Below are positions 1,042-28,614 of a stretch of 28,614 nucleotides of DNA, piece after piece. Source of the stretch: a virus; the IMG/VR virus record IMGVR_UViG_3300017991_001519, positions 1 through 28,614 of that record, one strand, 5' to 3'. A program made the position numbers and the translations under genes. How positions within the stretch are numbered: position 1 is the first letter of the stretch; every line of letters begins with the position of its first letter. The notes below the pieces were generated by a model. The model had not been told where the DNA came from and searched no databases. It saw only the letters and a list, made by a program, of their open reading frames with translations.

Positions 1042-2266
1042 GGTTCCTCACAGCCTCATTGTAAACCGTTAGCGTCTCATCCGCAGCCCTCTCCCAAGTG
1101 AATTCTGCGGCCCTCTCAAGTCCTAACTCTCTAAGGTCTGCCCTTAGCTCTGGCCTTTCCAAGTGCCTAAGGGCTTCCACAATCGCGCTAGCATCTCCTG
1201 GGGGAATGATTAGGGCATACTCACCGGACCCACTACAGACGATCTCCCCTAGCCCATCTACCTCTGTCGAGATGAGAGGGACCCCCATAGCCATAGCTTC
1301 TAGCGCGACAATGCCGAAAGGCTCATGGGTGGATGGCATGAGACAGACTGTAGCAGCTCTGTAGAGGTCTTTGAGGGGCTTACCGTGCTTGAACCCTACC
1401 CATCGTAGCCTCTCAGGATGGGCAGCCTCTAAAGCCCTTATGCGCCGGGTAACGTGCCATCCTTCTTTCTCCTCCTCTGAATTGGCATTGACCGTACCGG
1501 CTAGGACCACTTGCCATCCGGGATCGCAGCTCTCCAGAGCATCCAAGATGGGCACGATCCCTTTCATCTCTGCGATCCGTCCTACGTACAGAGCAATGGG
1601 ACGGGATGTTAGCCCATTGGTAACCATTGCCCTAGCTCCGTCCCCTGCCTGTGGATTCCACTCCTCCCGATTGATTCCGTTATAGATCATCCGGTAAGGT
1701 CTATCTACTAGCATATACTCTCTGGCAATCCTTACGTATGCCTCAGAGCAGAGGATAGTCTCATCAGGATCACACAAGAGGTTTCCCTCTTGTTGGCACA
1801 TATACCGATCTGCCTCACACCCTAGATCTAGGCTGCCTTCGCTAAGACTAGCCAAGTAGCTAAGGCATAGGTGCATAGTCCCAATGAGGGGGACGTTTAA
1901 AGCATGTTTGGCAATGCGTCCCAATTGGACGGAGCCCCATTCATGCATATGGATCACGTCCCATCTCCTGCCATCTGCGATCATCTTAGCCAGAGTCTTA
2001 GCCATGAGCAGATCGGTAGACAGGAGGCAGGACATATCAGGGGCAGAGGGCCTCCAACAAGTGTGGCAGTCTCTAAGCCACTTCTTAAAACCTAGGTAGG
2101 GGATGCTATCGTCTGGGGCCATGGTCCCCGGTTTAAACTCCCCATCGGTGAGTAGATCGATCGCTACTCCCTTAGAGGCCATAGTCCGGTACAGCTCCCG
2201 AACATGCATCCCCATCCCACCTAGGATGTGTTCTGGGTCCTCTCCGCAGATCGCAAGGACTCTCAT
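989..2266 (-). CDS. GT4-family glycosyltransferase (GT-B fold)
   Basis: A 425-aa enzyme predicted to transfer a sugar from a nucleotide-sugar donor. The N-terminal Rossmann domain starts MRVLAICGEDP and carries the glycine loop GGMG (about 16-19), as in glycogen-synthase-like GT4 enzymes. The C-terminal domain has YVGRIAEMKG (about 227-236) and the family's E-x7-E motif EPFGIVALE (about 315-323). Length matches complete GT4 enzymes. I chose the ATG at 2266 because it forms an ATGA overlap with the stop of the upstream appendage gene; an in-frame ATG 24 bases earlier is less likely. No signal peptide or membrane segment is seen. Placement among appendage genes suggests it decorates a virion appendage or alters host surface glycan; acceptor and donor are unknown. 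Confidence 0.9.
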   Translation of the reverse strand: MRVLAICGEDPEHILGGMGMHVRELYRTMASKGVAIDLLTDGEFKPGTMAPDDSIPYLGFKKWLRDCHTCWRPSAPDMSCLLSTDLLMAKTLAKMIADGRRWDVIHMHEWGSVQLGRIAKHALNVPLIGTMHLCLSYLASLSEGSLDLGCEADRYMCQQEGNLLCDPDETILCSEAYVRIAREYMLVDRPYRMIYNGINREEWNPQAGDGARAMVTNGLTSRPIALYVGRIAEMKGIVPILDALESCDPGWQVVLAGTVNANSEEEKEGWHVTRRIRALEAAHPERLRWVGFKHGKPLKDLYRAATVCLMPSTHEPFGIVALEAMAMGVPLISTEVDGLGEIVCSGSGEYALIIPPGDASAIVEALRHLERPELRADLRELGLERAAEFTWERAADETLTVYNEAVRNHASRSKHPHRACNLTLC

Positions 2267-2784
2267 CCCAAAACCCCTATCTCTCCCCATGCGTTCAGAG
2301 TCTTATAGCTAGCACTGTAGTTAGTCCAAACGGTACGGAGGACCCTAGTGCTAGGACCGGTAAGAGTAAGGTAGGCATTGGTTAGGGCGATGTAATTCCC
2401 CGTAGAGTCAAACACCTTATGGCTTAGGTTAAGGGCTGCCCCTGCCTTGGAGTAAACCGCATTGTAGCTAGTGCTGCCCAAGGTGCCATGGCCTCCGAGG
2501 GAAACGGTAGAGGCCTCGATACTGGATCGGTTAGCAATGCCATAGACCCCAGCCTTACCCCCAGCTGATTCCGTTGTGTGAATGGATCGGAAGGAGAACA
2601 CAACGCATTGGGCATCAAAGGGAACAGAGATATCCCATTCCCCAGGATCACCAGGAGGAGGGGAGATGCTAAGGGTAGTGTTCACTACCTCGATACTGGA
2701 CGGCCTCAGATGATGCTGAGATACCCCAATGTTGGATAGCGCAGCATGGGCAGTCGGATGCTCTAACCAATCACTTAACCGCAT
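2263..2784 (-). CDS. Small appendage/tail protein, paralog 3 of a tandem trio
   Basis: This 173-aa protein has no family I can name. It begins MRL, has a His-His pair near residue 24 and then NTTLSI. Its C-terminal half has YSKAGAALNLSHKVFDS followed by GNYIALTNAYLTL. The same order of motifs occurs in the gene at 3253-3753 (YSKQNSDLNLTHKIFDS, then RYIALKDAVLTG), so the two are clearly paralogous. The high content of beta-prone residues, Gly, Ser and Thr fits a beta-rich virion appendage. The start overlaps the upstream paralog by 14 bases, and the stop forms ATGA with the glycosyltransferase start, so all are probably translationally coupled. Confidence 0.8.
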   Translation of the reverse strand: MRLSDWLEHPTAHAALSNIGVSQHHLRPSSIEVVNTTLSISPPPGDPGEWDISVPFDAQCVVFSFRSIHTTESAGGKAGVYGIANRSSIEASTVSLGGHGTLGSTSYNAVYSKAGAALNLSHKVFDSTGNYIALTNAYLTLTGPSTRVLRTVWTNYSASYKTLNAWGEIGVLG

Positions 2785-3253
2785 AGGTACCGTAAACAGT
2801 TAGGTTCCGGGCCGTCCCGGAAAGGTTGGTAAACTCAAAGACTGCATCCGATCCGTCAATGTAGCAGTCACGTAGAGCGATCACTCCTTGCCCGAAGTCC
2901 GAAAAACTTAGGTAAGAATCCCCATAGAGTCTGGAGTAGGCCCCCATATAGCTCTGAGTCCCACTAGGGTAGGGCCGGACTCCTACCGCGGTAGACTCTC
3001 CACTGCTATCGGAGCCCACAACGAAAACCCCGGTATGGCCTTGAATGTCTACGCTAACTGTCCCTCTCAGGACAGCCCTAATAGTCTTGCACCCAGACTT
3101 ACCTAGCGCGATCCGCAGCTGGTAGTTACCCGGTCCGATGGCTTGGCTATTGATGAGGATACGATCCGTCACAACGGACGGATGATGATCGTCCGGCTCT
3201 ACCCCGGTTAGCAGATCATGATCCGTAACGGTATGCTTAGTAGGGAGCCTCAT
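2771..3253 (-). CDS. Small appendage/tail protein, paralog 2 of a tandem trio
   Basis: I set the start at ATG 3253, giving 160 aa. It makes a TAATG overlap with the upstream paralog and restores the shared N-terminus MRL; an in-frame start 30 bases earlier would add ten residues lacking in the siblings. The protein has PDDHHP, then NSQAIGPGNYQLRIALGKSG, which aligns with NTTQSIAAGADYDLDIALGDSG of the first paralog. The C-terminal part (VIALRDCYIDGSD, ending VYGTYAVK) matches the siblings' IAL-x-DA/NAYL block. It is the most diverged of the three. No enzyme motif is seen; a structural role at the tail tip is inferred. Confidence 0.78.
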   Translation of the reverse strand: MRLPTKHTVTDHDLLTGVEPDDHHPSVVTDRILINSQAIGPGNYQLRIALGKSGCKTIRAVLRGTVSVDIQGHTGVFVVGSDSSGESTAVGVRPYPSGTQSYMGAYSRLYGDSYLSFSDFGQGVIALRDCYIDGSDAVFEFTNLSGTARNLTVYGTYAVK

Positions 3254-3753
3254 TAGTATACGTGCGCCGAACCCTTGACCCAAAGGGTCCGGGAGGAGCT
3301 GTCATAGTTGTGGAAGGTTAGCCTTAGGTTACTGCCAGTGAGCACAGCATCTTTAAGGGCTATGTAGCGGTTTCCCGAACCTGTAACACTATCGAAGATC
3401 TTATGGGTCAGATTGAGATCCGAATTCTGCTTAGAATAGGTAGAGGAATAGGTCTTATAGATTGAGCCTGAGTCCCTGCCTGTGTGCCCAATGGCCTCCG
3501 CAGAGTCCCGGGTAAAGTGGACGCTAGCCCATTCATTCCAGAGGGTAGGGGTAATGTTATGGGCTCCCATGAGCATAGCCCTACCCCACTGATAGCCACT
3601 ATCCCCTAAGGCTATGTCTAGATCATAGTCTGCCCCAGCTGCGATGCTCTGGGTAGTGTTCTCAATCGCAACTTGTTTAGGCCTCGGATGATGATCGTCC
3701 GGGCCTCCGTCCGTAGGGTGTTCCCTACCGTCTATGTTCTGCTCTAGTCTCAC
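3253..3753 (-). CDS. Small appendage/tail protein, paralog 1 of a tandem trio
   Basis: A 166-aa protein that starts with GTG at 3753-3751, forming a GTGA overlap with the stop of the upstream propeller-like gene. The next residues (RLEQN) fit the MRL start of both siblings, which supports the GTG. It contains DDHHPRP, then ENTTQSI, and a C-terminal block YSKQNSDLNLTHKIFDS followed by RYIALKDAVLTG. There is no signal peptide and no membrane segment. The tandem copies directly after the appendage gene and before the glycosyltransferase suggest receptor-binding or decorating subunits. This is inference; the family is unnamed to me. Confidence 0.78.
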   Translation of the reverse strand: MRLEQNIDGREHPTDGGPDDHHPRPKQVAIENTTQSIAAGADYDLDIALGDSGYQWGRAMLMGAHNITPTLWNEWASVHFTRDSAEAIGHTGRDSGSIYKTYSSTYSKQNSDLNLTHKIFDSVTGSGNRYIALKDAVLTGSNLRLTFHNYDSSSRTLWVKGSAHVY

Positions 3754-5648: not shown

Positions 5649-6032
5649 TTAGCCCCTAGTGCTTAGCCAATGGGTAACCAGTCCCACGATTGCAGAAGTA
5701 AGAAGGACAGCAACAAGCCCCCAGATCCGGGCCTTCCACTTGTCCTCTACGGTTACCCTACGTGCTAGCTCCCTTTCTACCCGGATTAGCTCATGCCTAC
5801 TAGACTCATCTGCTCCACACTCCAACTTGGCTAGCCTATCCTCGAAACGTTTAAACCTCTCCTCTAAGGCTTTCCTATGCTCCTCATCCCTTACGTTTAA
5901 ACGGGCATAGTCTGTAGACAGCTTCCCAAGCTCTCTAATCAGGAAGGCCTTATCCTCTGGGCGCATTGATTCCGGGATCTCCAAGGTTTGGGACTCTGGT
6001 GGTAGTTCAGGCAGGATTAGAGCTGCGGTCAC
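5649..6032 (-). CDS. Coiled-coil protein with C-terminal membrane anchor (XhlA-like)
   Basis: A 127-aa protein. Residues about 45-95 are strongly charged with heptad character (EEHRKALEERFKRFEDRL, later RVERELARRV), predicting a coiled coil. Residues about 103-121 (IWGLVAVLLTSAIVGLVTH) form one membrane segment close to the C-terminus. This layout matches XhlA-type lysis accessory proteins and some tail-anchored holin partners. It overlaps the endolysin start-to-stop (ATGA) immediately downstream of it, so a lysis role is inferred. Two GTTTAAAC palindromes lie 46 bp apart inside this gene. Confidence 0.75.
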   Translation of the reverse strand: MTAALILPELPPESQTLEIPESMRPEDKAFLIRELGKLSTDYARLNVRDEEHRKALEERFKRFEDRLAKLECGADESSRHELIRVERELARRVTVEDKWKARIWGLVAVLLTSAIVGLVTHWLSTRG

Positions 6033-7606
6033 TTTGCAATCTCCGTTGCCTCAAAGTGCATACCATCTGGACGATTGGGAAAGTCCCCACCCCAGTAGAA
6101 GCCATGATCCCAAGCGTAGGGGACAAGCTGCCTAACGCTTCCTTCCTCTCCGATGGCAGGAGGCTTAGCGCCTAACGGATTCCAAGGAGCATTGATATCA
6201 AAGGCAGTCCCGAAAGCATGGTTACTAAGGACAGACCTAGAGCCCCTGATAAACCGGGGGACCCACATTCCAGCCCAGGACTTGACTAGATGCAGGAGGC
6301 CGGATTCTTCCCAGGCTTGCCACAGCCCTAAGAAACCGGCCACGATCGATCGGTGCAATAGGACTCTGCCGTTACGTGGGGCTCCTGGGATGCCTCGGAG
6401 CTGCGGGCAGTCAACCATGGTTATCCAATCCCTTACCCAGCTATCGGTAATGCGGATGGCTTCGGGCATACCCGGGACAGGATTGGACACGTATTCAAAA
6501 CGGCCCCAGGCATCCTCTCTAGCAGCTTGCCCATACAGAGGTTTAAACGGAGGACTTACCTTCTCTGGCTCTGAGGGCTCCTCTACGGCCCCAGCCGTTG
6601 CCCAGGACTTGGGACCTACGATGCCATCCGGGATAAGCCCTCGGGCTCTCTGGTAGCGCCTAGTAGCCTCCTCCGTCAGTCTCCCAAAGTCCCCATCCGC
6701 GCCATAGGGTGAGAGGCTCTCCCCGGACGTAACCAAGACGGTCTGCCACTCCACCACAGGAGGCCCCTTGTCCCCACGTCTAAGCACAGGATGGGGCACC
6801 CTCCCGGGAGGCTCCTCAGGGGCCGCTGAGAGGGGCCGGTATTCTGGGTGGACAGTCCAAGGCAGAGGCCCCCAAAGGCTCACAGAGCCAGCCTGAGCAG
6901 GATCTCTAGCCATCTGGGCCAAGCTCACCGGTAGCCCGGACAGCTTCCCGGGTATGGCAATGTAGTAGGCCCCCATACTGTAGTCCCAAAAGTGTAGGTA
7001 AAAGTGTGCCCATTGTTCCGGTTGGACTACATAGCCGGTCCGGGAGGAGTTGACTCCTCCCCCGGGGAGCCAGCTTGCGTTTTCTCTGGCGTAGCCTTCT
7101 GAGACTGGCCACCAATACTCACAGGCATAGTCCTTGCGGTAGCGAGGGTTAAGGACATAGGTTTTACAATAGCCCAGAAGGACAGCCTCAGGATCGCATA
7201 GCTTCTCATCCTCTTGGACTGCATCATTGTGTGCCTTAGCAGCTGCCTTAGTCATTCCGGCAGCTCCGTTAGGCTGGGTATGAGGACCGATATACTCAGC
7301 CCCCGGGAGAGCTGCCAGCTTGTCTAGAAGCAAGCTGGTAGGAGTCATGACAGGACAGCCCATCTCCCCCAAGACCTCAGCGATCCGATCCATGGCAAAA
7401 GCGGACAGCCCAAAGAGATAGACGTAATCCTCCGAGGTCCCGATCGCCAAAGGCCTAGCAAAGATCTTAGCCTCTAGATTGCCAATGGTGAGCTTATGCC
7501 ACCGGATGTAAGCATGGCCATCCCGGATAGCCTTAACGATGGCCTTTAGGTAACCATCGCCCAGATCTTCCGGGACCTCCTCAGCCCACCATTGGGACCC
7601 CTTCAT
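6029..7606 (-). CDS. Endolysin: N-terminal novel module, PG-binding domain, M15 peptidase
   Basis: A 525-aa, three-part protein predicted to cut peptidoglycan peptides. Residues 1-265 form a module I do not recognise, rich in Trp, Tyr and His (LHFWDYSMGAYY at 204-215). Residues about 274-337 are a PG_binding_1 domain (LRRGDKGPPVVEWQ, then YGADGDFG, then DGIVGPKSW). The C-terminus is an M15 VanY/endolysin-type metallopeptidase: SNHAFGTAFDIN at 461-472 provides ligands H463 and D470, and DGMHFE at 514-519 supplies H517. There is no signal peptide, so export would need a holin. At 525 aa it is much longer than simple M15 endolysins. The start overlaps the 53-aa gene as ATGA. Confidence 0.88.
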   Translation of the reverse strand: MKGSQWWAEEVPEDLGDGYLKAIVKAIRDGHAYIRWHKLTIGNLEAKIFARPLAIGTSEDYVYLFGLSAFAMDRIAEVLGEMGCPVMTPTSLLLDKLAALPGAEYIGPHTQPNGAAGMTKAAAKAHNDAVQEDEKLCDPEAVLLGYCKTYVLNPRYRKDYACEYWWPVSEGYARENASWLPGGGVNSSRTGYVVQPEQWAHFYLHFWDYSMGAYYIAIPGKLSGLPVSLAQMARDPAQAGSVSLWGPLPWTVHPEYRPLSAAPEEPPGRVPHPVLRRGDKGPPVVEWQTVLVTSGESLSPYGADGDFGRLTEEATRRYQRARGLIPDGIVGPKSWATAGAVEEPSEPEKVSPPFKPLYGQAAREDAWGRFEYVSNPVPGMPEAIRITDSWVRDWITMVDCPQLRGIPGAPRNGRVLLHRSIVAGFLGLWQAWEESGLLHLVKSWAGMWVPRFIRGSRSVLSNHAFGTAFDINAPWNPLGAKPPAIGEEGSVRQLVPYAWDHGFYWGGDFPNRPDGMHFEATEIAK

Positions 7607-23968: not shown

Positions 23969-25785
23969 TAGTCCTCATCCTCCTTTAGAGACTCCTCCGT
24001 TTCTGCCCCCTCTTGTGGAGGAGTTGTCTCATCCTCCTCTAGAGGCTCTCCTCCTGGGCTCTGGGCTGGCTCTGTGGCCATGGGTGGAGGGGGCTGGGGC
24101 TGTGAGCCGTCCGGGGGCTCCGGGCCTTCTGAGAGGCTCTCAGACTCCCCAGAGATCTCCTTAGCCTCCGCTGCCCCCTCCGCTGCCCCTACCTTCTCCC
24201 CTTGCGTCTCTTTGAAGGCCCGGAATTGGGCAACGGTCAAAGCCCCCTCCTCTGCATCTGGCCAGGGAGGCAGACCCACAGAGGCTAGGGCTTGGTTGAC
24301 GTTAACGAAACTGGCTAGATCTGTAGGTGCGAATTCGACCTTAGGCCCGGACGTAGCAGACTCCTCTGAGGGCTCCGTAGGCTCTGCCCCTTCCTCAGGC
24401 TCCGTAGGTTCTGCTAGCTCTGCTGCTAGCATCCTCTCTCTAACGTCCCGGTCTATGTTCGTCTCTGGGCTCCACCCATCCGGCCGGAATCTGCTTAGCG
24501 CGATCTCCTCTGGCAGGATTACCCCAGTCTCTAGGTATACCTTATCCTTATCTGCCGTAGCCTTTTCTAGCTCTGCTCTCTCCTTCGGGGTCATCTGCCA
24601 GAGAGACTCAAAGTCTAGCGTCCACTCTGCTGGCTCCTTGCCATTAGTGGGACCGTCTTGGGCTAGCATGATGAGACGAATTGCGCGTTCTAGCTCTGGC
24701 CTTAGATCATTCTCTTGGGCAGTCTTGACGTTATCGTAGAAGTGTTGGAAGTCTGAGTCCCCGGTAGCGTTCATTCCAGCTGGGCTACGTCCCATGAGGA
24801 TGGTAACGGGAATGTCTACCACTGAGGCAAGCCTAAGCATAAACTTATCTAGCATACCGGCCGCATCAGTGAACGATGAGGGCTTTCGGTCAAAGTCCTC
24901 ATTCTCTGCGTCAAGCATTACGGCCCTAGCAACGGACCGGGACATATCTACGATCTCTAGCCTCTGCTGTAGAATGTCCTTTTGGCCTCCTGCGATCATG
25001 GCCATTAGCCCCTGTAGTTTAAACACAGCCTGAGAGGCATCCGACATAAGATGCTCTGCGGACTTCCACACAGACCAGAAAGCCCTAAGCTCCTCATATA
25101 CTGTGTCAATGATTGAGAGGTCCCATCCGCCTAGCCGGTCCTTCTCCTCATCCGAGGTATGGGCTCCACCAAAGAGGATTAGTCTACTCCTGTGGATACG
25201 GACAGAGTTACCCCCTCGCCTAGGTACTAGCTGGTAAACCTCTGGCTCCCCGAAAAACTCATCCTCTATTGGATCATCGTAGAAGTCCTGAGGCATGAGG
25301 TAGCGCCTATCCACTACATGCATGAAACGGAAGGACCGGATGCGGTCCTCTCTTAGGGGACTGTCCGCAGCTCCCCCATCATCCACCCCAAGCACGATCG
25401 CAGCCCCACCATAGAGCCGGCCCCAGATCATAGCGTTAAGGAAGTGCCTAGTAAGTCTCAGGTTACGGATAGCTTTGGATAGCTCTGCCGTAGCTTCCTC
25501 ATCCTTTGGGATGTTTACCTTAAACCCCTGCCTTAGCATCTCCCTAGGTTTAAACGCTACCACCTTCCGAGCATCGGCAGACTGATGGTAGAGGGACGTT
25601 AGCTCTTGATCGTCTATCCGTTGCAGAGTGACGAATCGGCCATAGACCGTCTTATCCCGGGACGTGCCCAGGCCCGTAAGCAAGTTCTGCCAATTGTCGA
25701 TCCGCAGAGCCCCTTGGATGGCCTCCCCTACTCTGAACAGAGAATCTAGGTAATTGGGCTTAGCCTTAGTGAGATTCTTACCCAT
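23968..25785 (-). CDS. Portal protein, DUF1073 family
   Basis: A 605-aa protein forming the dodecameric portal through which DNA is packaged. The N-terminal block YGRFVTLQRIDDQELTSLYH, the segment RLTRHFLNAMIWGRLYGGAAIVLGVDDGG (about 110-138) and FRFMHVVDRRYLMPQDFYDDP are typical of DUF1073 portals. The conserved helical block ITILMGRSPAGMNATGDSD and QENDLRPELERAIRLIMLA follow. The last about 150 residues are Glu/Pro-rich and disordered, longer than usual in this family. The start overlaps the terminase stop by 8 bases. Two GTTTAAAC palindromes lie inside. Confidence 0.93.
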   Translation of the reverse strand: MGKNLTKAKPNYLDSLFRVGEAIQGALRIDNWQNLLTGLGTSRDKTVYGRFVTLQRIDDQELTSLYHQSADARKVVAFKPREMLRQGFKVNIPKDEEATAELSKAIRNLRLTRHFLNAMIWGRLYGGAAIVLGVDDGGAADSPLREDRIRSFRFMHVVDRRYLMPQDFYDDPIEDEFFGEPEVYQLVPRRGGNSVRIHRSRLILFGGAHTSDEEKDRLGGWDLSIIDTVYEELRAFWSVWKSAEHLMSDASQAVFKLQGLMAMIAGGQKDILQQRLEIVDMSRSVARAVMLDAENEDFDRKPSSFTDAAGMLDKFMLRLASVVDIPVTILMGRSPAGMNATGDSDFQHFYDNVKTAQENDLRPELERAIRLIMLAQDGPTNGKEPAEWTLDFESLWQMTPKERAELEKATADKDKVYLETGVILPEEIALSRFRPDGWSPETNIDRDVRERMLAAELAEPTEPEEGAEPTEPSEESATSGPKVEFAPTDLASFVNVNQALASVGLPPWPDAEEGALTVAQFRAFKETQGEKVGAAEGAAEAKEISGESESLSEGPEPPDGSQPQPPPPMATEPAQSPGGEPLEEDETTPPQEGAETEESLKEDED

Positions 25786-27313
25786 TGCTACTTGCCTTGA
25801 TTGCTCGCATGGCCTCAGCTAGCGGAGAGCTACGGACGTGTAAACGGATTAGGGCTTGAGTGGTTTGGTCTACCATATCATCGTTTACACCCCTAGGAAA
25901 CGTGACTAGCTGAGTCCGGTAGTCTTGCACCCAAGGGGCTAAGTCTGGGTGCGGTATAAACACGTTGCCTGCCTCGAATAGACCGGTAACCGCATTAGCC
26001 CTAGCTTCCTTACCTCCCTCAGGATTGACTAACACGATCCCGGAGATCTCCCTCTTGAGGGTATCCTCTACGGCCGGTCCGTTAGCTTTATCCTCTATCA
26101 ACTTGGTTAGGGCTCTAGGCTCTGCCTCAGTCATGGCCTTTACCTCCCTAACGGTTTCGGTAAAGCTCATCCTACGACATACCTGCTTAACCAAGAAGTG
26201 GTCTACCCCTACCTTTAGCCATAGCCCCCCAGCTACATAGTCTGTCCCATCCCCACCTTTAAACGTCATATCCCAAGACTGTAGCCAAGTTCCGTTCCTG
26301 GGGAGCACCTTACAGAAGTCTTGGACGCAGGGAAACTCATCCTCTTGGGGTGGCCTTACTCCTGCCTTATGATGCCAATACCGAAACCATGCCTTTTGGA
26401 ACATTCCACCGGATGCAGGAGTAGGCCTCTGCTGCAATTGGGCAGCCGCTACGGCCGGTCCCATCTCTGTGGTTTCTAGCTCCCTAACCACTTCCTCAGG
26501 GAATCTCTCTGGCCAAAGTAGCTCCCCCTCCTCTGTCCTTTGGTCCTCTGGAGTACAATCCCGATGACAGACACAGACCTTATGGGTCTTTCGCATGGGC
26601 AGACAGAGATGATCCCAACCACCCTCTCTTAGCATCTCCCCGGCTAGATCATCCTCATGCAATCGCTGCATGACAATCACCCTACGGAAGTTGGCCGGAT
26701 CTGCTCGCCTACTAGCAGCCGTGGCATGATACCAACGGGACACAGCATTAATAGCCTTCTTAGTTACTGCATGAGTACCCCCTACCTCCTGAGGCTTGTT
26801 GGGATCGTCCACTACTTGGATATCAACGTGTCTACCCGTTCCCTTACCTCCTGGGCTAGTGGCAAAACGGAATCCCCCGGCCGCGGTTTGGAACATGCTA
26901 GCGGCTGGGGCCTTATCTACTAACAGCTCCCCCCATCGGTCAATGAACCACTTGGACTGGAGTAGGTCTATCACCCTACCCCCTTGGACAGTCCCCACTA
27001 GCGAGGCATCGTAGCTAGCAAACATCCACTTAGTAGAGGGCCTAGAGATCCATTCCCAGGCTGGCCAGGCAACGCTAACGGTTAGGCTCTTGGTTGTCCC
27101 CGGGGGCACGTTGATAACGAGCCTCTTAACCTCTCCACTGGATACCGCTTGGAGCCTCTCACAGACAATAGGAAGGTGCCAATTATCAACGAAGGGGCTA
27201 GGGTCTATCTCAGCCCAAGCCATCGTTAGAAAGCGATACAGGCTGTCTGGGGACCTCCTTACAATCTCCCTCTCTGTGTCTGCCAAGTTGCCCAAGTAGA
27301 GTGAGGTAGCCAT
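25778..27313 (-). CDS. terL: Terminase large subunit
   Basis: A 511-aa ATPase/nuclease that packages DNA. Walker A is PPGTTKS (70-76) and Walker B is QVVDDP (166-171); a coupling-type VIVMQRLHEDDL follows at 212-223. The nuclease domain has D348 in WDMTF, an IEDKANG block at 406-412 and NDDMVDQ at 477-483, the three acidic sites of terminase nucleases. It resembles the psiM2 ORF9-like large terminases. I kept ATG 27313; M31 is a possible later start. No Shine-Dalgarno is visible, since the region before the ATG is taken up by a GC-rich hairpin. No recognisable small terminase is nearby. Confidence 0.95.
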   Translation of the reverse strand: MATSLYLGNLADTEREIVRRSPDSLYRFLTMAWAEIDPSPFVDNWHLPIVCERLQAVSSGEVKRLVINVPPGTTKSLTVSVAWPAWEWISRPSTKWMFASYDASLVGTVQGGRVIDLLQSKWFIDRWGELLVDKAPAASMFQTAAGGFRFATSPGGKGTGRHVDIQVVDDPNKPQEVGGTHAVTKKAINAVSRWYHATAASRRADPANFRRVIVMQRLHEDDLAGEMLREGGWDHLCLPMRKTHKVCVCHRDCTPEDQRTEEGELLWPERFPEEVVRELETTEMGPAVAAAQLQQRPTPASGGMFQKAWFRYWHHKAGVRPPQEDEFPCVQDFCKVLPRNGTWLQSWDMTFKGGDGTDYVAGGLWLKVGVDHFLVKQVCRRMSFTETVREVKAMTEAEPRALTKLIEDKANGPAVEDTLKREISGIVLVNPEGGKEARANAVTGLFEAGNVFIPHPDLAPWVQDYRTQLVTFPRGVNDDMVDQTTQALIRLHVRSSPLAEAMRAIKASSNG

Positions 27314-27374: not shown

Positions 27375-28109
27375 TTAGATGCGACACTTTCCCAGAGGGG
27401 AGAAGATGCGGCGGAATTGGGCTGTCATTGTGGTTGAATCTCCCTTGCCCAGCTTCCAAGGCTTGGGTGGAAGGTAGACAATCACATTAGCATGGGTGGG
27501 GCTATCACTAGCGATCCTCTTACCTCCTTCCTCCGTATCAAACCGGATACGTTGCTTTGGCACACATAGGGGAAAGTCCAAGGGCTGTGGCACGTCTAGA
27601 GCTTGGGCAGCCCTCAAAACCTCCAAGGTAAAGCCTACGAAGATCGCAGCCTCTACCTCCCCCTCCTGCCAATACCCGGCTAATGCAGACCACCAAAGGG
27701 CTGCATTGCTCCGAGTCCCCAGCCCTGCGTATTGTTCCGGGACTTTGCCCCCAGGAGGATTGAGAAAGACCTTACCCATCCAAGGCTCTGCTAGCCCATC
27801 CTCTGCTAGCTCACTTCCCGGACCGTACCAAGCAATGGCCTTAACCACTTCTTGGCCCAAGGTACAGGACGCAGGGTCTAGCTCAATCACTCCAAGCACA
27901 GACCTAGCAGCCTCTACGATTGGCTCCGGGGTATAGTGCTCATTGCTTGCGCTGCTATGCTGAGGGTTCTCCTTAGGAGTCTTGGTCATACCCAGCCCTC
28001 CACAGGCTGCACACTTTGGATCTACCCCGGGACCAGGACGGCTCTTATGCCCAGTCCCTCCACAGGCTAGACACTCCTCATAATCGTAGCCTCTAGGTTT
28101 GATTGCCAC
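27375..28109 (-). CDS. Phage Dam-family adenine methyltransferase with DnaJ-like zinc knuckles
   Basis: A 244-aa enzyme predicted to methylate adenine N6 in DNA. The C-terminal domain (about residues 56-220) matches the phage Dam family: EHYTPEPIVEAARSVLG, then IELDPASC (76-82), then VFLNPPGGK (114-122), in which NPPG is the amino-MTase catalytic motif (usually NPPY/F). Before it stand two CxxCGGxG motifs (C13/C16 and C33/C36), the DnaJ-type zinc pattern, which I have not seen as a usual part of this family. It overlaps the 51-aa gene by 17 bases. It could protect phage DNA from host restriction or set packaging marks. The target site is unknown. Confidence 0.88.
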   Translation of the reverse strand: MAIKPRGYDYEECLACGGTGHKSRPGPGVDPKCAACGGLGMTKTPKENPQHSSASNEHYTPEPIVEAARSVLGVIELDPASCTLGQEVVKAIAWYGPGSELAEDGLAEPWMGKVFLNPPGGKVPEQYAGLGTRSNAALWWSALAGYWQEGEVEAAIFVGFTLEVLRAAQALDVPQPLDFPLCVPKQRIRFDTEEGGKRIASDSPTHANVIVYLPPKPWKLGKGDSTTMTAQFRRIFSPLGKCRI

Positions 28110-28248
28110 GGTCCTTTTCCCTTCTCTGCCGCAGCTCCTCTAACCAGAGGATGAGGTCTTTCCTGTGCTTGTAGATGGTAGGGCCGTCCCCCTCCCGTAG
28201 AGCCCTTAGCACTGTGTCTAAGGGCTCATGGGTCCAGTCCCTAGCCAT
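28093..28248 (-). CDS. 51-aa protein, unknown
   Basis: A small gene with ATG 28248 and stop 28093 that overlaps the methyltransferase start by 17 bases. An AGGGAGGG stretch lies about 9 bases before the start. The protein is charged and helical (TIYKHRKDLILWLEELRQRREKDR) with no cysteine motif and no membrane segment. It may help the methyltransferase or HTH protein by context, but no function is supported. Confidence 0.55.
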   Translation of the reverse strand: MARDWTHEPLDTVLRALREGDGPTIYKHRKDLILWLEELRQRREKDRGNQT

Positions 28249-28252
28249 TCCC

Positions 28253-28614
28253 TTAGCCCTCCCTCTTGACCATGCGGATCTCCAAGTCCACCCCCAGGGC
28301 TCCGAAACAACGCGAGGCCAAGCCCTCTGTAATGTTCTCCGAGCGGAGGATCTCAGGGATGCGAGGCCCGGAGATCTCCAAGCGTCGGGCTAGCTCTGCA
28401 TGAGAGGTCCCGGTAGCTGCACAAGCCTCCCGGACCAGATCCGCTAGAAAGACCTCGGAGAACATCCGAGCGGACTTGTCGAAAGGCTGCGGATTGGGGT
28501 GGACTCCCTTGGGATTGGGGGGAGTCTTGGGGCCGGCCTTCTTGGGCTTGGTCTTGGCTGCCTTCTTGGGCTTTGCTGTGGCCTTGGGCTTGGCTGTGGC
28601 CTTCTTGGGCTTGG
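28253..28614 (-). CDS. Histone H1-like tail fused to a HTH domain (N-terminus off window)
   Basis: The frame runs open into the right edge, so the start is outside. The visible part is 119-120 residues. The first about 35 visible residues are KPKK-, TAKP- and AAKT-type repeats typical of bacterial/eukaryotic histone H1 and AlgP-like DNA-compacting tails. After a proline-rich linker comes an HTH_XRE-like domain: MFSEVFLADLVREACAATG, then SHAELARRLEISGPRIPEIL, then the recognition-like end. The protein ends at TAA 28253-28255. An ATG at 28465 would give just the HTH, but the tail continues without a stop, so one fused gene is more likely. It may be a nucleoid-type or early regulator of the phage; function is inferred. 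Confidence 0.7.
   Translation of the reverse strand, partial: KPKKATAKPKATAKPKKAAKTKPKKAGPKTPPNPKGVHPNPQPFDKSARMFSEVFLADLVREACAATGTSHAELARRLEISGPRIPEILRSENITEGLASRCFGALGVDLEIRMVKREG
28566..28601. repeat. 18-bp tandem repeat coding the H1-like tail
   Basis: TTGGGCTTTGCTGTGGCC (28566-28583) is followed directly by TTGGGCTTGGCTGTGGCC (28584-28601), one mismatch. More such units are expected beyond the edge. Confidence 0.7.

Follow-up and report, generated by a model that had tools for sequence, protein, structure and literature searches.

The right end of one viral record raises the question of whether a phage has joined a histone H1-like tail to a helix-turn-helix (HTH) domain and, if so, what the resulting protein does. 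The stretch of DNA that we analysed (the window) is the entire IMG/VR virus record of 28,614 nt, and its right edge is therefore the end of the contig, beyond which the 5' end of the gene concerned, here called the focal gene, is lost. The focal frame does not contain a single stop codon up to the contig end, and its product consists of a tail (KPKKATAKPKATAKPKKAAKTKPKKAGPKT), a linker (PPNPKGVHPNPQPFDKSAR) and an HTH domain (MFSEVFLADLVREACAATGTSHAELARRLEISGPRIPEILRSENITEGLASRCFGALGVDLEIRMVKREG) that is followed by the stop codon. The visible part of the tail is composed of 13 K, 7 A, 5 P, 4 T and 1 G. An earlier note, made from the window alone, had described an upstream frame that stays open, a KPKKA-type tail, a Pro/Asn linker and an HTH, and this description is borne out by the translation and by complete homologues. 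The features are collected in Table 1.

Table 1. Features at the right end of the window (window coordinates, unless a locus is named)
Feature	Position	Strand	Basis
Focal gene, 3' part (119 codons + stop)	28253..28612	-	open frame; complete homologues L003:5752-6255, L002:1637-2161
Visible Lys/Pro/Ala (H1/AlgP-like) tail, 30 residues, net charge +13	28523..28612	-	translation, composition
Pro/Asn linker PPNPKGVHPNPQPFDKSAR	28466..28522	-	alignment
Cro/C1 (XRE, antitoxin-like) HTH domain, 70 residues	28256..28465	-	PHROG/Pfam matches, structure matches, selection
In-frame ATG, internal Met codon rather than start	28463..28465	-	unconserved, no ribosome site
Inverted repeat GAGCCCTTAG-N8-CTAAGGGCTC, perfect 10-bp arms	28200..28227	-	arms identical in three phages
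51-aa ORF, between focal gene and methyltransferase	28093..28248	-	conserved in L002, L003, more distantly L004
DNA methyltransferase-like gene (PHROG 111), constant neighbour of the HTH	27375..28109	-	
Terminase large subunit	25778..27313	-	

A scan of viral contigs (IMG/VR) yielded two loci with a complete homologue, L003 and L002, both of which come from dataset 3300018080; the L003 contig has at least 100 bases of its 3' end repeated near its 5' end, as for a complete genome. The two complete fused genes encode proteins of 167 aa (L003) and 174 aa (L002), their ATG start codons are both preceded by GGAG, and the proteins share the N-terminus MxGITDxIRxAAK. The 78 (L003) or 85 (L002) residues in front of the linker have a net charge of +23 or +26 and include 27 K, 16 A and 16 P in L003, and 28 K, 20 A and 15 P in L002. 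The tail is followed in both proteins by the linker and the HTH as in the window, and the linker segment PPNPKGVHP is identical in the three phages. We conclude that the focal frame encodes a real protein and is not a chance reading frame. The union of an H1/AlgP-like tail with an XRE-type HTH next to a methyltransferase gene in a phage, which the earlier note had pointed out as unusual, is therefore real, being present as complete genes in two relatives. The complete domain pair was found in two viral contigs, and no match was confirmed in bacterial and archaeal genomes with the full protein as query. Exclusive use of ATG 28465, which the earlier note had named as a threat to the fusion and which would yield a 70-aa HTH protein with the tail never made, is exceedingly improbable: the ATG is there and its product would be roughly as long as the homologues without a tail, but no ribosome site was found ahead of it, the Met is replaced by Asp or Thr in L002 and L003, an ATG with GGAG lies further upstream in both of these relatives, and conservation of the linker is seen at the protein level. 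We therefore rule out a start at this codon and consider the fused form to be the real one.

The HTH part of the protein has been kept with little change. Between pairs of the three phages, its codons show 17-23 synonymous versus 4-9 nonsynonymous differences, mostly at third positions (5, 4 and 20 differences at first, second and third codon positions for L003 versus L002), a pattern which indicates that the domain is under strong purifying selection. The window protein itself falls below the Pfam cut-offs; its homologues in five more distant phages (L004-L007 and L087), which are 36-57% identical to it, exceed the cut-offs for HTH_3, HTH_31 or HTH_37. A profile search of solved structures placed HigA at the top (E 2e-4), followed by other antitoxins, and Aca7 was among the matches too; the score of the HigA model lies below the curated cut-off. 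Up to about residue 100, the AlphaFold2 model of the L003 protein is of low confidence and lacks secondary structure; it then has four helices at residues 104-154, a block with pLDDT 76-84. These helices form a predicted lambda-repressor-like fold, with matches at Z 6-9 in VIA-align, including HicB3 (Z 8.7), HipB (Z 7.8), HigA (Z 7.4) and C.Esp1396I (Z 7.1). It should be noted that the best of these scores (Z 7-9) lie in a range that VIA-align terms common, and that such moderate scores support the fold, not any function. Judged by sequence matches and model together, the focal HTH is a Cro/C1 (XRE, HigA/HipB-like) domain. A separate observation is a 35-nt run within its coding region (28332-28366, minus strand), containing a CTCCG-N2-CGGAG palindrome, which is identical in the three phages and is the longest identical stretch in the about 3 kb compared.

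The gene also has a stable genetic surrounding. The same methyltransferase gene lies a short way downstream of the HTH in eight of the eight records that have the HTH, and four further loci contain relatives of the methyltransferase and no HTH. In L003, the genes on one strand start with the small terminase, continue with an SprT-like gene and further genes up to the focal one, and then run through the 51-aa ORF, the methyltransferase, the large terminase and the portal to the structural genes; the opposite strand carries an XRE gene of repressor type and, named by eye, a helicase-like gene. The SprT-like metalloprotease gene (L003:3652-4269) was recognised by its Pfam match (SprT-like, E 2e-6). 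The small terminase is a separate gene upstream on the same strand (PHROG 6299, E 7e-13 in L003 and 3e-12 in L087), which rules out the focal protein as the terminase small subunit. A role as early or master repressor is less likely, given the repressor-like XRE gene beside the helicase on the opposite strand. For the same reason, and with the focal gene of L003 placed on the strand that leads from the small terminase to the structural genes, the suggestion in the earlier note that the protein might regulate early genes found no support.

Just past the focal gene, 25 bases beyond its stop codon and inside the 51-aa ORF, lies the inverted repeat listed in Table 1. Synonymous changes in this ORF number only 1-2 per pair in the first 22 codons compared and 6-9 in the next 22. 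With three sequences at hand, the repeat is a lead: it may be an operator or, equally, an RNA hairpin.

How far does the tail extend beyond these three phages? Among 80 loci that were picked by their terminase and examined for relatives of the HTH, a close relative was present in L004-L007 only, and an alignment search added L087 as a fifth more distant phage. In all five, the same HTH stands at the same position, upstream of the methyltransferase and the terminase, with a short N-terminus instead of the long tail; these short N-termini are basic in L004 (MAKRTRKPKPKS), L006 (MPKNPKRPKRRQ) and L007 (MPKNQRRRKRRE), and less basic in L005 and L087. Terminase identity is 89-92% inside the tailed group and 62-67% between tailed and tail-less phages. 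Since the five distant phages keep the HTH and its position without the long tail, the latter is, in this sample, a feature of one lineage, and the fusion is real in the window and its two relatives and absent from the others. By the same comparison of loci, the wider unit is the HTH with the methyltransferase, the tail being restricted to one clade. Any function common to the family would then rest on the HTH, because the tail-less homologues keep the same position. This provides a natural comparison: one HTH gene occupies one operon position, in some phages with an H1-like tail and in others lacking it.

With regard to function, our preferred reading, which we hold tentatively and at slightly below an even chance, is that the focal protein is a DNA-binding regulator of the late operon whose basic tail adds non-specific DNA affinity. 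Most likely, the HTH would dimerise on a palindromic site and regulate the late operon comprising the methyltransferase, packaging and head genes, and the disordered basic tail would act electrostatically, raising the general affinity for DNA and slowing dissociation; it may also bridge DNA close to the HTH site. Dimerisation, an operator in this operon and the role of the tail are the elements that we infer. The reading is weakened by the fact that XRE domains also act as antitoxins or structural modules, by the commonness of the fold scores and by the alternative of an RNA hairpin for the inverted repeat. It is supported by the complete fused genes, the purifying selection on the HTH, the kinship with HigA, HipB and HTH_37 in both sequence and fold, the methyltransferase downstream in every record with the HTH, and the inverted repeat near the stop codon. 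HupB also offers a precedent: firm binding to DNA can require an H1-like tail (PMC5676037). HupB (PMC5676037), HupS and AlgP (PMC9239181) resemble the focal protein in that a DNA-binding protein carries disordered, basic repeats rich in Lys, Ala and Pro; HupB, however, combines an HU core with a C-terminal tail, whereas the focal protein combines an XRE core with an N-terminal one.

The main rival to this regulator is a DNA-condensing protein, in which the tail would be the working part, coating or compacting either the host nucleoid or the DNA of the phage (the latter ahead of packaging or in its course), and the HTH would target or oligomerise the protein. We regard this as possible, though on balance unlikely. 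The idea in the earlier note that the protein might compact or mark phage DNA is likewise possible. The charge of the N-terminus and tail, +23 to +26 over 78-85 residues, and the adjoining packaging genes are consistent with it, and so is SIRV2_Gp1 of an archaeal rudivirus, a protein with a Lys-rich N-terminus and an HTH, which condenses DNA through its Lys-rich part, a short homologue being unable to do so (PMC5537682). The HTH behind that Lys-rich tail bound no DNA (PMC5537682), which counts against the regulator reading. SIRV2_Gp1 belongs to a different virus world, its extension has 28 residues versus about 80 here and is not described as K/P/A repeats, and it is an analogue, not a relative, of the focal protein. 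Five homologues at the same position have no long tail, so that condensation cannot be the common job of the family, and tails of this kind are found on many viral proteins that are unrelated. A more specific version, which we consider improbable, is that of a site-guided condenser: the XRE domain would seed the protein at a site near the packaging genes and the tail would bridge DNA, so that late in infection the genome of the phage or the nucleoid of its host becomes compacted. Such a protein, equally improbable in our estimate, would be the bacterial-virus counterpart of SIRV2_Gp1, derived from a regulator by addition of a repeat-built tail. If the tail does turn a local regulator into a DNA compactor, this would illustrate how chromatin-like viral proteins can evolve through the expansion of repeats, an archaeal virus providing a parallel; otherwise, the focal protein is a regulator of the usual kind that has a basic tail.

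How the tail arose bears on a further alternative. The tail DNA of L002 is an imperfect tandem repeat, and in the tail of L003 CCC is used for 13 of the 16 Pro codons, compared with about a quarter of the Pro codons in the long genes of the window. The tandem repeat and the CCC bias suggest that the tail originated by repeat expansion: probably, a short basic arm grew in one clade through expansion of AAG-CCC/AAG-GCC-type repeats, and the tail would have been gained rather than lost. Among the three phages, it has been rearranged via in-frame indels with its composition retained. These same properties, the tandem repeat, the codon bias and the changes of length through in-frame indels, would fit a near-neutral expansion with little function, leaving the protein simply an XRE regulator like its tail-less relatives. 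We think this quite improbable, as composition and charge are retained in three phages whose DNA clearly differs, and conservation extends to the linker and to the N-terminal MxGITDxIRxAAK. Lys/Pro/Ala-rich tails are frequent on many unrelated viral proteins among the matches listed in a scan for KPKAKPKAK, which reduces the surprise of the fusion; none of the listed viral ORFs with this motif, of which at least 90 were examined, carries the focal HTH, the only HTH type covered by this search. XRE HTH domains and H1-like tails are both already known, and it is their combination here that is moderately interesting.

A last alternative is that the protein is an antitoxin or an Aca-like autorepressor of a small neighbouring gene, such as the 51-aa ORF, and not a regulator of the late operon. 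HigA antitoxins are the closest solved relatives by sequence, Aca7 is listed too, and Aca proteins, which are HTH repressors made by phages, act on small operons (PMC9410881, PMC9410906). Nevertheless, we give this alternative only a small probability, as neither a toxin nor an anti-CRISPR is recognisable beside the focal gene: its neighbours are the 51-aa ORF, the methyltransferase and, upstream in L003, a 277-aa ORF without a family match. In addition, no homologue of the 51-aa ORF was detectable in L005-L007 and L087, and the constant neighbour is the methyltransferase. HigA, HipB, HTH_37 and the HicB3 HTH share the domain by sequence and fold, but the focal gene differs from HigA and HipB in having no recognised toxin partner and in the basic tail of about 80 residues added in its clade. 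Controller (C) proteins such as C.Esp1396I are likewise small XRE-fold proteins encoded beside a methyltransferase gene; many XRE proteins score alike, however, and no restriction enzyme gene was recognised between TerS and TerL in L003, where several ORFs match no family.

Searches in other collections were largely negative. The window fragment had no match among annotated phage genomes, in which the L003 HTH gave matches at chance level, and plasmids gave no match. The HTH profile gave one match in bacterial and archaeal genomes (L089), which appears to reflect superfamily kinship only, because the next gene reads as Fic-like (by eye). Rfam and tRNA searches returned no matches.

With respect to short sequence words, GATC is enriched relative to a first-order model and, in the window, only slightly so relative to a maximal-order model (255 versus 232). 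Against a first-order model, both the window and the L003 phage (L098-L100) show about a threefold excess of GCTAGC and lack GCATGC altogether; GCTAGC is not enriched in the part of G003 examined. Elsewhere in the window, all on the minus strand, positions 6029-7606 encode a likely endolysin that combines a peptidoglycan-binding domain with an M15 peptidase domain, and three adjoining genes at 2263-3753 (166-173 aa) are apparent tandem duplicates, by eye, of one tail-region protein; their openings resemble one another, showing P-DDHH or Q-HHxRPSS motifs together with I-x-N-T-x-S-I. A family-4-type glycosyltransferase gene (989-2290; Pfam Glycos_transf_1, E 2e-27) lies downstream of the tail genes and is also present in the complete relative (L098:2251-3522).
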